The position numbers and the translations under genes are program-made. From IMG/VR virus record IMGVR_UViG_3300025810_000095, positions 1-22,070 of that record: a DNA stretch of 22,070 nucleotides; one strand, given 5' to 3'. This document shows, one piece after another, positions 13,354-16,900 of this stretch. This DNA is from a virus. The notes beneath the pieces are model-generated. The model was not told where the DNA came from. It made no database searches and was given only the letters and a program-made list of their open reading frames with translations. Every line of letters starts with the position of its first letter. The stretch's first letter is position 1.

Positions 13354-13743
13354 CTATTTCCTGTTATTAACTATGTGAATAACTTTTGGATTATTCATGG
13401 CATAGTTCTTTTGTTGTTTATTCTTAGCTAAAGTAATTTTTCTTCGCTTATTTAGATTGTGTTGTATATAATCTTGCATTAATTTTTTCTCAAAAACATA
13501 ATGGTTTGTGCCATTGTTAATTTGTTTTCTAGCAAGCATCCCAAACAACTGTAGTCGGTCAAGGCACTTAGTAAGTGTTCTCCTGGTTTTAATACCAGTT
13601 CTTAACATCAGGTATTTGTGCGATATTCGGCAACCATTGGGTGCAAACTCAAAGGATTTGCAAATGACATAGATTAGCTTTTCATGGCTATTTAAGTTTC
13701 TGTTGTTAATTAAATCTTTGTCAAATTTTTCAAAATATTTCAT
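13354..13743 (-). CDS. Winged-helix (HTH_36-like) DNA-binding protein, 129 aa
   Basis: Residues about 15-75 (LNSHEKLIYVICKSFEFAPNGCRISHKYLMLRTGIKTRRTLTKCLDRLQLFGMLAR) show the helix-turn-helix and wing of HTH_36-type domains, which occur in phage replication initiators and regulators. The remaining 50 residues are basic and probably disordered (NLNKRRKITLAKNKQQKNY). The ATG overlaps the stop of the MT-A70 gene (ATGA at 13740-13743). Without an additional replication domain it is more likely a regulator, or the DNA-binding part of an initiator. The 17-bp direct repeats directly after its stop are a likely target. Confidence 0.65.
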   Translation of the reverse strand: MKYFEKFDKDLINNRNLNSHEKLIYVICKSFEFAPNGCRISHKYLMLRTGIKTRRTLTKCLDRLQLFGMLARKQINNGTNHYVFEKKLMQDYIQHNLNKRRKITLAKNKQQKNYAMNNPKVIHIVNNRK

Positions 13744-14276
13744 ACTTCGTTACCCCAACAATCCCATCCATCAACTTTCTGTCTGGCAAAGAGTTCAATT
13801 CTAGGTAAATCACCACAAAGCTGTACGATTCTATCCCTTACACAATCAGGCTTTCTGCTGTGTTCTCTAATTTTATCAAGCACTACCTGGTGGACAGATG
13901 ATGATATTCTTTTTGGCTTACCTTTTGTGGCCAGCAAACAAATCTCATTATTGGATCTTGTATAATAACCCATTCCCCAAAATAAACTGTCAGCTTTTTT
14001 ATTTTTTTTTATCCAACTAAAACCACAAGTTTTATATGTAAATCCCCATCGTTTTATGGTTTCTAAACCCTCTAATAAATTTGGATATGTTACCCAAATA
14101 AATAAAATACAATTATCGTCTGCAATTTCATTTACAGGCATTTTATAAATATCCTCAGCTGACATGAGATCATAATGATCTGAAACTTTTCTTTGTGCTT
14201 TGTTGCTCCAAAAAGTAAAAGTCCAAGCTGGATCTGCATAAATAATATTGTATTTTTTGTTTGGCAGCTTAATCAT
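13740..14276 (-). CDS. MT-A70 family adenine DNA methyltransferase
   Basis: The catalytic motif DPAW lies at residues 15-18 (YNIIYADPAWTF), a variant of the DPPW motif of MT-A70 enzymes that methylate adenine N6. Further family elements are LFIWVTYPNLLEGLETIKRWGFTYKTCGFSWIKKNK and the SAM-side motif HSRKPDCVRDRIVQLCGDLPRIELFARQ near the C-terminus. I choose the ATG at 14276 (178 aa), preceded by AAAGGTGG, over the GTG at 14285. The gene overlaps the zinc-finger ORF upstream by 8 bases. In phages such solitary enzymes usually protect the genome against host restriction or alter promoter activity; which applies here is not visible. Confidence 0.85.
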   Translation of the reverse strand: MIKLPNKKYNIIYADPAWTFTFWSNKAQRKVSDHYDLMSAEDIYKMPVNEIADDNCILFIWVTYPNLLEGLETIKRWGFTYKTCGFSWIKKNKKADSLFWGMGYYTRSNNEICLLATKGKPKRISSSVHQVVLDKIREHSRKPDCVRDRIVQLCGDLPRIELFARQKVDGWDCWGNEV

Positions 14277-14436
14277 CCTCACCACCTTTACCTATTTCCT
14301 CTAATGGTATTTGTAATATTTCAGATGAATAATGATCTGGGCAATAATGCTTATTGTTTTCTGTTAGCATAGCTGGTGTATCACAATCTTTCATGCAACA
14401 CTTCTTTGCCGGATCACCATACATATCTAGTTCCAT
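14269..14436 (-). CDS. Small zinc-finger protein, 55 aa
   Basis: The ORF bridges the two methyltransferase genes, overlapping the cytosine enzyme by 10 bases and the adenine enzyme by 8. The peptide (MELDMYGDPAKKCCMKDCDT..., then KHYCPDHYSSE) has the pattern C-x3-C (C14, C18), a PA pair, and C32-x2-H35, a layout seen in small phage zinc-binding proteins. A second in-frame ATG at 14424 gives 51 aa. The acidic tail ends EEIGKGGEDD. It may be a DNA- or protein-binding partner of the enzymes on either side, since all three are translated in close coupling. Confidence 0.65.
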   Translation of the reverse strand: MELDMYGDPAKKCCMKDCDTPAMLTENNKHYCPDHYSSEILQIPLEEIGKGGEDD

Positions 14437-15329
14437 TCATTTATTTCTTCTTCTGCTTTAATAATGGCTTTGCCAATTTCTGTGATGATGGGAGGTACGA
14501 TTGAATTTCCAAGTGCTTTAATTCTGTTGGCTCTATCTGTGTCCAATTCTGTTGAAATCCCATGAGGAATTCCAAAAAGTTCGGATTCAGTTTCCCACCA
14601 GGTTTGTTGTTTTTTAATATCTGTCTGGCACAACTGTTTTGTGAGTTCTTGCCCATTTTCCAAGTTGTGTTGTAGCTCATATCCTTGTGATCTGATGCTC
14701 TGGGTGTTGGATAATTCCATTTGATTACTGGTTGTTCTGAGTTGTAATCTTTGATTGCTGTTAAAATATTTATTTGATGTTTCTTCTCCCTTAAATTTTT
14801 CTGACTTCTTGCACCCCTTGCTGAATCCCAAGCATTTGGTGTTGGCAGCAACGATCCAGATTCTACTTCTTTTGTGCCATGCTCCTTGCGAACTAGCTGA
14901 AATATTAAAAGTTTGGACTTCGAAACCTTGAGATTCCAAATCATTGTAAATTCCTTGCAAGATTTCTCCATTTGAGATGTTAGTAAGGTTTTGGACATTT
15001 TCGCCAATAATCCATCTGGGTTTAACCTCTTTAATGACTCTAAACATTTCATCCCAGAGGTATCGTTCATCATCTTTTCCTTTTTGCTTACCGGCAATAC
15101 TGAAACTTTGACAGGGAAAACCTCCGACCAACACATCTGCTTTAATTTTTCTGGCATCTAATTTTTTAATATCCTCATGTATTGGTATGTTTGGCCAATG
15201 CTTATGCAAAACCTTTTGGCAAAACTTGTCTTGCTCACAAAAGGCAACTGTTTTGAATTTATTAGTTGACTCAAGACCAATACTAAAACCACCAATACCG
15301 CTGAATAAATCAAGTACACTTAATTCCAT
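14427..15329 (-). CDS. C5-cytosine DNA methyltransferase
   Basis: A 300-aa enzyme with the ordered C5-methyltransferase motifs: motif I LDLFSGIGGFS (residues 6-16), motif IV GGFPCQSFS with catalytic C73, motif VI GENV (109-112), motif VIII WHKRSRIWIVA (about 151-161), and C-terminal motifs IX-X WWETESELFGIPHGI and RIKALGNSIVPPI. The target-recognition part (about 165-240) is short. It transfers a methyl group from SAM to cytosine C5 at a site not predictable here. The ATG at 15329 overlaps the nuclease-like gene by 10 bases. A 238-codon ORF lies in the +1 frame at 14441-15157. Confidence 0.92.
   Translation of the reverse strand: MELSVLDLFSGIGGFSIGLESTNKFKTVAFCEQDKFCQKVLHKHWPNIPIHEDIKKLDARKIKADVLVGGFPCQSFSIAGKQKGKDDERYLWDEMFRVIKEVKPRWIIGENVQNLTNISNGEILQGIYNDLESQGFEVQTFNISASSQGAWHKRSRIWIVAANTKCLGFSKGCKKSEKFKGEETSNKYFNSNQRLQLRTTSNQMELSNTQSIRSQGYELQHNLENGQELTKQLCQTDIKKQQTWWETESELFGIPHGISTELDTDRANRIKALGNSIVPPIITEIGKAIIKAEEEINEWN
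14441..15157 (-). CDS. Overprinted ORF inside the cytosine methyltransferase gene, 238 aa
   Basis: This ORF is open for 238 codons in the +1 frame of the cytosine methyltransferase gene, in DNA where stops are frequent. Its product is not random: it contains SGSLLPTPNAWDSARG, YPTPRASDHKD and GGKLNPNFLEFLMGFQQNWT, then a basic SSQK tail. These are signature motifs of a phage protein family I know as standalone or C-terminal proteins (W/LPTPTASD and LNPxWVEWLMGFPxGWT). They lie exactly over methyltransferase motifs VIII to X, read one base later. The ATG at 15157 is only one possible start, and no clear ribosome site was confirmed. Translation is not proven; see the finding. Confidence 0.5.
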   Translation of the reverse strand: MPEKLKQMCWSEVFPVKVSVLPVSKKEKMMNDTSGMKCLESLKRLNPDGLLAKMSKTLLTSQMEKSCKEFTMIWNLKVSKSKLLIFQLVRKEHGTKEVESGSLLPTPNAWDSARGARSQKNLREKKHQINILTAIKDYNSEQPVIKWNYPTPRASDHKDMSYNTTWKMGKNSQNSCARQILKNNKPGGKLNPNFLEFLMGFQQNWTQIEPTELKHLEIQSYLPSSQKLAKPLLKQKKK

Positions 15330-15831: not shown

Positions 15832-16098
15832 TTAATTTGGTATTTTTTCTAAATGTAAATGATGTGATTTAATTTTATCCAATTCTCTATCTGACAGTTC
15901 TGGATTTAATTTTTCACAAAATGCTAAGATTAAACTTCTCATTTCAGAGTTGCTTAACAAATCAAATCCTGCCATTTCAAAAATTTGGTTGTATTCTTTA
16001 GGGGTAAAATTAATTTCTTCTAAATCTTTTATTTTTTCTTTTATTTCTTTGTATTTTTTTAAATTAATATCAAATTCCACAATAACCCTCACACTCAT
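15832..16098 (-). CDS. Hypothetical 88-aa protein
   Basis: A helical protein (MSVRVIVEFDINLKKYKEIK...) starting with one strand followed by charged helices (DLEEINFTPKEYNQIFEMAG and MRSLILAFCEKLNPELSDREL). It overlaps the end of the PP-loop gene by 29 bases in another frame. A GTG at codon 7, preceded by GAGGG, is an alternative start that would shorten the overlap. No family recognised. The single cysteine and two adjacent histidines (KSHHLHLEK) do not make a clear metal site. It sits between two DNA-modification-type genes. Confidence 0.5.
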   Translation of the reverse strand: MSVRVIVEFDINLKKYKEIKEKIKDLEEINFTPKEYNQIFEMAGFDLLSNSEMRSLILAFCEKLNPELSDRELDKIKSHHLHLEKIPN

Positions 16099-16900
16099 TA
16101 TTAAATAAATCTAGTTGATCAGTTTTTGGATCAAAATCTATTTCATCAATTGGTTTGCAACTGTTGTGTAAATACAGCTCATCTTTTAAAGTTGCCGAAC
16201 CTTTATTTTTTTCCTTAAATCTTTCTTGTGTTCTTATTGCTTTATCCAATGCAACAACTTCATCCCACTCTCTACTATTATTTTTTATTTCAAGCCATTC
16301 TTTTGCAGAATGAAATGGGCAAAAAGTACAAGCTGATCTTGGTGGTTTAGGATAATTATTTTTTTCCATCCATGTTAAACAATGTGCTCTCCTAAAATCT
16401 TTATCTATTAATGGGTAAATATTTTTAATATATTTAATTGGGTTGATTTTCATTCTTTGAACTTCATCTTTAGATATGCCCATTAACAGTTCAACTTGAG
16501 TACCCTCTTTTCTTCTTTCACCTTTTTTTAAACCAAGTAATTCTCTTATTTTTTGTAATACAGGTTTTATCTTGTAATCTGCTGTGCATTGTCTGCGAAG
16601 CATACCTTTTTTTCCTGTTTCTAAATTTTTGGTGTAAAATGGTGCTGTAAAAGCTTTAAATTCACCTTTAGAAGCATCTAATATATCTTGTTTTAAATCT
16701 CTGTAGCTAACAATATAAATTGGAAATTTAGTAATTTGTTTTTTTAAATAATTTAGCCAATCATAAACCGCTTTTGGCTCACCTTTTACATCTGCAAAAA
16801 TAGCTGCACTGACGTTCTCAATTTCACCCTTTTGAATCATAAGTGCTAAAGTAGAACTTTGAACACCAGCACCTAAACTTAATATTCTTAATTTTTTCAT
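16070..16900 (-). CDS. PP-loop ATPase, PAPS-reductase-like
   Basis: A 276-aa protein with an N-terminal PP-loop of the form SLGAGVQSSTLAL (residues 8-20), which binds ATP and adenylates a substrate in this family. Cysteines C105 (LRRQCTADYKIKP), C174 and the pair C191/C194 (SACTFCPFHS) are spaced as in phage PAPS-reductase-like proteins, and the last residues CEGYCGI are a known C-terminal signature of that group. Such phage proteins are usually annotated as phosphoadenosine phosphosulfate reductase; true sulfate reduction is unlikely. Relatives act in tRNA thiolation and DNA phosphorothioation (DndC). Its position beside two DNA methyltransferases suggests a nucleic-acid substrate, but this is inference. 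Confidence 0.78.
   Translation of the reverse strand: MKKLRILSLGAGVQSSTLALMIQKGEIENVSAAIFADVKGEPKAVYDWLNYLKKQITKFPIYIVSYRDLKQDILDASKGEFKAFTAPFYTKNLETGKKGMLRRQCTADYKIKPVLQKIRELLGLKKGERRKEGTQVELLMGISKDEVQRMKINPIKYIKNIYPLIDKDFRRAHCLTWMEKNNYPKPPRSACTFCPFHSAKEWLEIKNNSREWDEVVALDKAIRTQERFKEKNKGSATLKDELYLHNSCKPIDEIDFDPKTDQLDLFNNECEGYCGI

Follow-up and report, generated by a model that had tools for sequence, protein, structure and literature searches.

A +1 reading frame nested in a phage cytosine methyltransferase gene very probably encodes the target-recognition part of a split enzyme

Introduction

What does a +1 reading frame of 238 codons do inside the gene of a phage C5-cytosine methyltransferase? 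The question is raised by a virus record from IMG/VR, which we analysed over a stretch of 22,070 bases (the window) and in which profile searches find phage terminase, portal and major head genes. A sequence-only reading of this DNA had pointed out the frame and listed LLPTPNAWD, YPTPRASD and LNPNFLEFLMGFQQNWT in its product, and it had proposed either a general overprinted gene, giving two products from one locus, or a frequent frame switch. The frame is indeed open for 238 codons from an ATG, nested in an ORF of 300 codons, and its product holds the three motifs. We refer to the 300-codon ORF as alpha and to the nested one as beta.

Lee reportedly described in 1995 that the small polypeptide of M.EcoHK31I is encoded within the gene of the large one, in an alternative frame. 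More is on record about methyltransferases that are divided, overlapping or modular. In the summary given in PMC3404938, M.EcoHK31I consists of two polypeptides, a large one with motifs I-VIII and X, where the predicted target-recognition domain (TRD) is also placed, and a small one with motif IX; M.AquI appears there as a related split C5 enzyme. Fully overlapping C5 methyltransferase ORFs were reported in the 5093-group phages of Streptococcus thermophilus (PMC5601072), a paper that cites Streptococcus pneumoniae phage MM1 and Tn5252 as older cases. The C5 methyltransferases of Bacillus phages SPR and H2, as cited in PMC8936443, are multispecific and have tandem modular TRDs, and an out-of-frame HNH insertion of the ShiLan type is known from a phage methylase (PMC11855218).

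Results

Alpha has the catalytic motifs and motif X

Alpha matches PF00145 and carries motifs I, IV (PCQ), VI (ENV), VIII and X, as expected of a C5-cytosine methyltransferase (table 1). In a monomeric canonical enzyme, one polypeptide also contains motif IX and a TRD, and these alpha does not have: in a profile comparison with canonical methyltransferases, only motifs I-VIII and motif X aligned, and no alignment was obtained in the motif IX columns. The AlphaFold2 (AF2) model of alpha is confident for most of motifs I-VIII and for motif X, with a core that fits M.HhaI at 1.5 Å over about 165 columns. Between them, pLDDT falls below 50 at residues 177-223, 233-237 and 244-258, and the linker is predicted to be disordered.

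Table 1. Parts of the alpha and beta ORFs in the window (AF2, AlphaFold2; omega, dN/dS with bootstrap interval in parentheses).
Feature	Position	Strand	Evidence
Alpha, C5-cytosine methyltransferase ORF, 300 aa	14427..15329 (15329..14430 plus stop)	-	PF00145, 5.2e-50; phrog_363, 1.2e-71
Alpha motifs I-VIII, catalytic domain, residues 1-162	14844..15329	-	canonical methyltransferase profile, 1e-48; AF2 confidence high over most
Alpha read-through linker, residues 163-258, neutral in alpha frame	14556..14843	-	omega_alpha 1.24 (1.07-1.43); AF2
Alpha C-terminus with motif X (RIKALGNSIVPP)	14430..14555	-	canonical motif X columns, 1.3e-5; omega_alpha 0.23
Beta, nested +1 ORF, 238 aa, ATG start, wholly inside alpha ORF	14441..15157	-	ORF scan; phrog_1008; selection
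Beta N-terminal domain, residues 1-103, over alpha motifs IV-VIII	14849..15157	-	omega_beta 0.68 (0.53-0.85) and 0.47 (0.31-0.80)
Beta TRD-like module 1 (LPTPNAWD...KWN), residues 104-148	14714..14848	-	module pattern; exchange among betas
Beta TRD-like module 2 (YPTPRASD...PGG), residues 149-188	14594..14713	-	module pattern; exchange among betas
Beta motif IX (KLNPNFLEFLMGFQQNWT), residues 189-206	14540..14593	-	top canonical-profile match; omega_beta 0.14

The +1 frame is open in the window and in its homologues

An open frame may be an untranslated by-product of codon bias or amino-acid composition. When synonymous codons in the beta region were redrawn from neighbouring genes, the +1 frame had 14.8 stops on average and a longest open run that averaged 50 codons and reached at most 129 in 2000 draws, against the 238 observed. 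The gene's own codon usage lowers the expected stops to 6.6, which speaks for a by-product, yet shuffling its own codons gave runs of at most 218 in 2000 draws. Nine other genes of the window have 10 to 68 +1 stops each, their longest +1 run being 87 codons. The sharpest comparison is with canonical enzymes: over motifs IV-VIII, 114 alpha-type homologues have no +1 stop in 10,502 codons, whereas 54 canonical C5 methyltransferases have 278 in 5,380, the mean GC being 0.46 in both sets. Redraws, canonical control and the selection on beta amino acids described below rule out chance or codon bias, an explanation to which we give next to no credence.

Homologues were gathered with the methyltransferase protein, with methyltransferase patterns and by searching DNA for a pattern that encodes EWLMG[FY]P. 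Between motifs VIII and IX, 101 non-redundant loci together hold 12,520 codons with 0 stops in the +1 frame and 957 in the +2 frame; the 0 frame, that of alpha, is open through this linker in 99 of them. In the 59 IMG/VR homologues (GC 0.31 to 0.59), the +1 frame is long and open wherever the fragment covers it, and the +2 frame is rich in stops. Among 80 loci fetched by N-terminal alpha motifs only, the +1 frame is open in every one and matches the beta profile (E 1e-36 to 1e-85); the +2 frame of the same loci showed no beta-profile homology. Among the outcomes that the sequence-only reading had named as speaking against it are interruption of the +1 frame in close homologues and a family made up of frameshift mispredictions. 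Neither was found: the frame runs uninterrupted through the 101 loci, and the members of the beta family are not random mispredictions.

One phage locus (KT997847.1 16128-16999) is annotated as two genes. We considered it as an alpha gene with a stop and set this aside, since a change of the alpha frame near codon 45, which may be a sequencing error, explains the split annotation. Its beta is open save for one stop near the C-terminus.

Both frames are under selection, with a balance that shifts along the gene

Selection was estimated from closely related homologues that are 80 to 98.5% identical, taken as 51 independent pairs. Possible and observed changes were classed as silent or not in each frame; this simplified dN/dS for overlapping genes keeps the transition weights fixed, and the pairs were bootstrapped. 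Before the overlap, substitutions follow the pattern of an ordinary gene (183/95/543 by alpha codon position); within it they are distributed as 1348/587/1137.

The balance between the frames changes along the gene. Ahead of the beta start, omega is 1.26 for beta and 0.22 for alpha. Over motifs IV-VIII, beta has 0.68 and alpha 0.21, indicating that both frames are in use at once. From motif VIII to IX, beta falls to 0.24 (0.18-0.31) and alpha rises to 1.24, and in motif IX the values are 0.14 and 0.58. At the motif X end, the order is reversed, with 0.88 (0.63-1.32) for beta and 0.23 for alpha. Going by these values, beta alone counts between VIII and IX, and alpha alone at motif X. Beta is under purifying selection in the 51 pairs, which is the extra +1 constraint that an overprinted gene should have. 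Together with the open frame and the non-random family members, it supports the first of the two earlier proposals, a general overprinted gene with two products; the second, a switch from one frame to the other, is not supported, given the joint constraint between motifs IV and VIII.

Beta consists of exchangeable modules followed by a motif IX

Searched against protein families, as had been suggested for the 238-residue product, beta matched phrog_1008 at 1.5e-24 over residues 4-217 (2.7e-25 in the genome search), and the Pfam and NCBIfam profile searches gave no match, for Pfam above the cut-off. The match to phrog_1008 is nearly full length, but the label of that family, 'DNA methyltransferase', names the activity of alpha; beta is without catalytic motifs. 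The best match of beta in the whole canonical methyltransferase profile is motif IX (LTpREaaRLqGFPd), ending just ahead of the motif X columns; in beta the motif takes the form LNPxWVEWLMGFPxGWT. The match is short and, with a score of 22.1 against a null mean of 11.2 and maximum of 18.7 in 60 column shuffles, weak taken alone (P ~0.02). The sequence-only reading had taken the LNP..GF motif of beta for the +1 reading of an ordinary motif IX. The relation is the other way round: the 0 frame at this place is not an ordinary motif IX, and the +1 reading itself looks like one.

Between the N-terminal domain and motif IX, beta proteins have one to six repeats, each opening with a PTP-like motif; we counted 708 such modules, of median length 41 residues, in 281 proteins; the window beta has two. 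The same module can be 71-91% identical in betas whose N-termini are 19-52% alike, and it occurs at different positions. Tandem, exchangeable modules of about 40 residues characterize multispecific methyltransferases, and beta has them. What appears as ADT/ANT repeats in the alpha linker is an out-of-frame reading of these modules.

Modelled alone, beta gave a poor AF2 model (pLDDT 63, pTM 0.29) that supports no claim about its fold, and a Foldseek comparison with the PDB found no relative. Within the N-terminal domain, two helices and two strands are predicted at a pLDDT of about 64-88 (residues 31-100). Beta very probably carries the DNA-target recognition part of the enzyme; as a TRD of a given fold it is a candidate only, the model being poor.

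Beta accompanies methyltransferases that lack motif IX

We then compared the presence of beta with that of motif IX in 90 methyltransferases, mostly from random Pseudomonadota and Bacillota genomes and one from a seed genome. None of the 73 that bear motif IX has a beta, while 13 of the 17 without it do (one weakly); the ratio 73:17 is no estimate of frequency, since the first 60 PF00145 genome matches were the top-scoring ones, hence canonical, and weaker partial matches were added for balance. Natural variants join the same segments differently. In two viral loci (L045 and L050) and a bacterial one (L165), alpha ends right after motif VIII, and an overlapping +1 ORF holds the modules with motifs IX and X. 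In L338 and in a Candidatus Megaera plasmid (L434), the LNPDWVEWLMGYP segment stands in the alpha frame, immediately 5' of motif X, and the beta of the plasmid ends without it.

These observations bear on the possibility that beta is a real overprinted protein of some other function, for example anti-restriction or regulatory. It would accord with beta alone having no recognizable fold and with phage MM1, where ORF14 is a different nested +1 ORF over a canonical methyltransferase bearing motif IX, so that nested ORFs other than TRDs may exist. Such a function is nevertheless improbable: beta is present where alpha has no motif IX and absent where motif IX is found, the conserved C-terminal end of beta matches motif IX where this motif is expected, in the variants the same segments are linked to motif X, and alpha has no constrained segment able to serve as a TRD.

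Alternatively, programmed frameshifting might yield one hybrid polypeptide, read in the 0 frame to motif VIII, in +1 through the TRD and motif IX, and in 0 again for motif X. The constrained frame does change in exactly that order along the DNA, and L338 and L434 have motifs IX and X in one frame. However, such a product would need two frameshifts per protein and would leave unused the +1 frame over motifs IV-VIII, which is selected and stop-free as well; the 0 frame is moreover open across the linker in nearly all loci. There is also a start to be accounted for. An SD-like 4-mer precedes the beta ATG in 84 of 100 loci against a background of 14%, an excess confounded by the alpha codons for EDI. 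The ATG lies some 11-13 codons 5' of the GGFPCQ codons in most relatives, and in the window its signal is weak (GAGG about 14 bases upstream). Selection on the +1 frame between IV and VIII makes a single frameshifted polypeptide very unlikely, more so than a beta of other function.

The beta-type arrangement is a widespread minority and is usually missed in annotation

According to record titles, loci with the DNA pattern of the beta motif come from Bacillota, Pseudomonadota, Actinomycetota, Planctomycetota, Verrucomicrobiota, Acidobacteriota, Chloroflexota and others, with alpha intact in nearly all. The beta profile matched in 4 of 199 Bacillota genomes (two strongly, one being the seed) and in 16 of 200 Pseudomonadota genomes, some weakly. 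Among C5 methyltransferases, beta-type enzymes are in the minority.

In most annotations the arrangement is overlooked or wrongly labelled. For Paenibacillus phage Shelly, the entry for beta reads 'g55 internal gene'; Leyra and K1ind2 list it as their second 'DNA methyltransferase'. In a prophage of Escherichia coli EC20 (L494:1443-2655), annotation divides the C5 methyltransferase into two pseudogene fragments; its alpha ORF is open for 404 codons, beta is open, and the annotated 'gap' is the unconstrained linker. Annotation pipelines may thus call members of this family broken.

Discussion

Our preferred reading, which we hold to be highly probable, is a naturally split C5 methyltransferase encoded in two overlapping frames, in which a catalytic alpha and a beta with target-recognition modules and motif IX would assemble as one enzyme. 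Beta would initiate separately at its own ATG and fold with alpha, supplying target recognition and motif IX. Alpha would supply cofactor binding, catalysis and motif X, the latter joined to motifs I-VIII by a read-through linker not under selection, and would flip and methylate the cytosine. The modules would choose the target, and the most likely role of the enzyme would be to protect phage DNA from host restriction.

Along the DNA, the canonical order (I-VIII, putative TRD, IX, X) is kept although two proteins share it, and the gene can be read as braided from two frames. We give an even chance to the following origin: in an ordinary C5 methyltransferase gene, the central part with TRD and motif IX slipped to +1 while both ends kept their frame. 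Modules would thereby be free to shuffle and duplicate without disturbing the catalytic frame, and phages and bacteria could build multispecific methyltransferases in the alternate frame.

Among known systems, M.EcoHK31I (YGGCCR) comes nearest, the window pair having its I-VIII plus X/IX layout in a comparison by published description rather than by sequence. Its TRD is predicted in the large subunit, whereas our selection map places it in beta, a difference that counts against the present reading. The passages of PMC3404938 on this enzyme make no mention of multiple shuffled modules or a wide distribution. M.AquI (CYCGRG) likewise has two subunits, and the variants in which alpha ends after motif VIII come close to its split; its small subunit, however, holds a distal variable region with motifs IX and X, while in the window motif X is on alpha and beta is fully nested. 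Beta modules behave like the tandem TRDs described for SPR and H2 in the cited account, which lie within a single polypeptide and not in a separate overprinted subunit. The ShiLan-type case also uses a second frame inside a phage methylase gene, but what is encoded there is a homing endonuclease that came with an insertion and is no conserved subunit.

The 5093-group phages, MM1 and Tn5252 have in common with the window that one C5 methyltransferase gene is covered by two ORFs in different frames. We set MM1 ORF14 apart from the beta family: motif IX (LTPRECWRLQGFPD) is present in the MM1 methyltransferase itself, and the 141-residue ORF nested in its gene has neither modules nor motif IX and scores 12 bits against the beta profile. 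ORF14 (L541:7631-8056) and a counterpart in L472 represent a second, distinct nested +1 ORF (..SLSDILEEEVDERYFLSAE.., ..SLIDILETKVPEKYFLSPE..), which overlies motifs IV-VIII of canonical C5 methyltransferases with their own motif IX.

A literature search found no account that explains the beta family or its generality, although such an absence is no proof. What we consider new is this generality, the selection map, the placing of target recognition in beta and module shuffling in an alternate frame; the arrangement is much wider, and divides the labour differently, than the published summary of M.EcoHK31I and M.AquI conveys in the part concerned. A widespread family that carries the annotation 'hypothetical' or the mistaken label 'DNA methyltransferase' gains a testable role, and phages and several bacterial phyla prove to share a long, deeply conserved same-strand overprint. 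The apparent absence of a TRD in these methyltransferases would also be explained: the +1 frame is where their specificity should be sought, and specificity prediction or methylome matching from the annotated protein would be misplaced. The unusual codon-position pattern can serve in practice as a signature in searches for further overprinted subunits.

Some neighbouring genes may be recorded here. Directly downstream of the C5 gene, the window has an N6-adenine methyltransferase-like gene (13740-14285, minus strand; phrog_359, 3e-84), and in the E. coli EC20 prophage, too, the C5 gene has a methyltransferase neighbour, of the MT-A70 type. In Klebsiella virus KpV2811 (L432:657-2016), the beta frame continues stop-free into an adjoining endonuclease VII/HNH-like gene. 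The phage of the window further encodes, both on the minus strand, a PAPS reductase-like protein (16070-16900; phrog_424, 5.7e-39) and a tail-fibre-like protein (1-1725) with repeated units SVDSDQYVDGSIDT.HIADSQITNAKMAAN.
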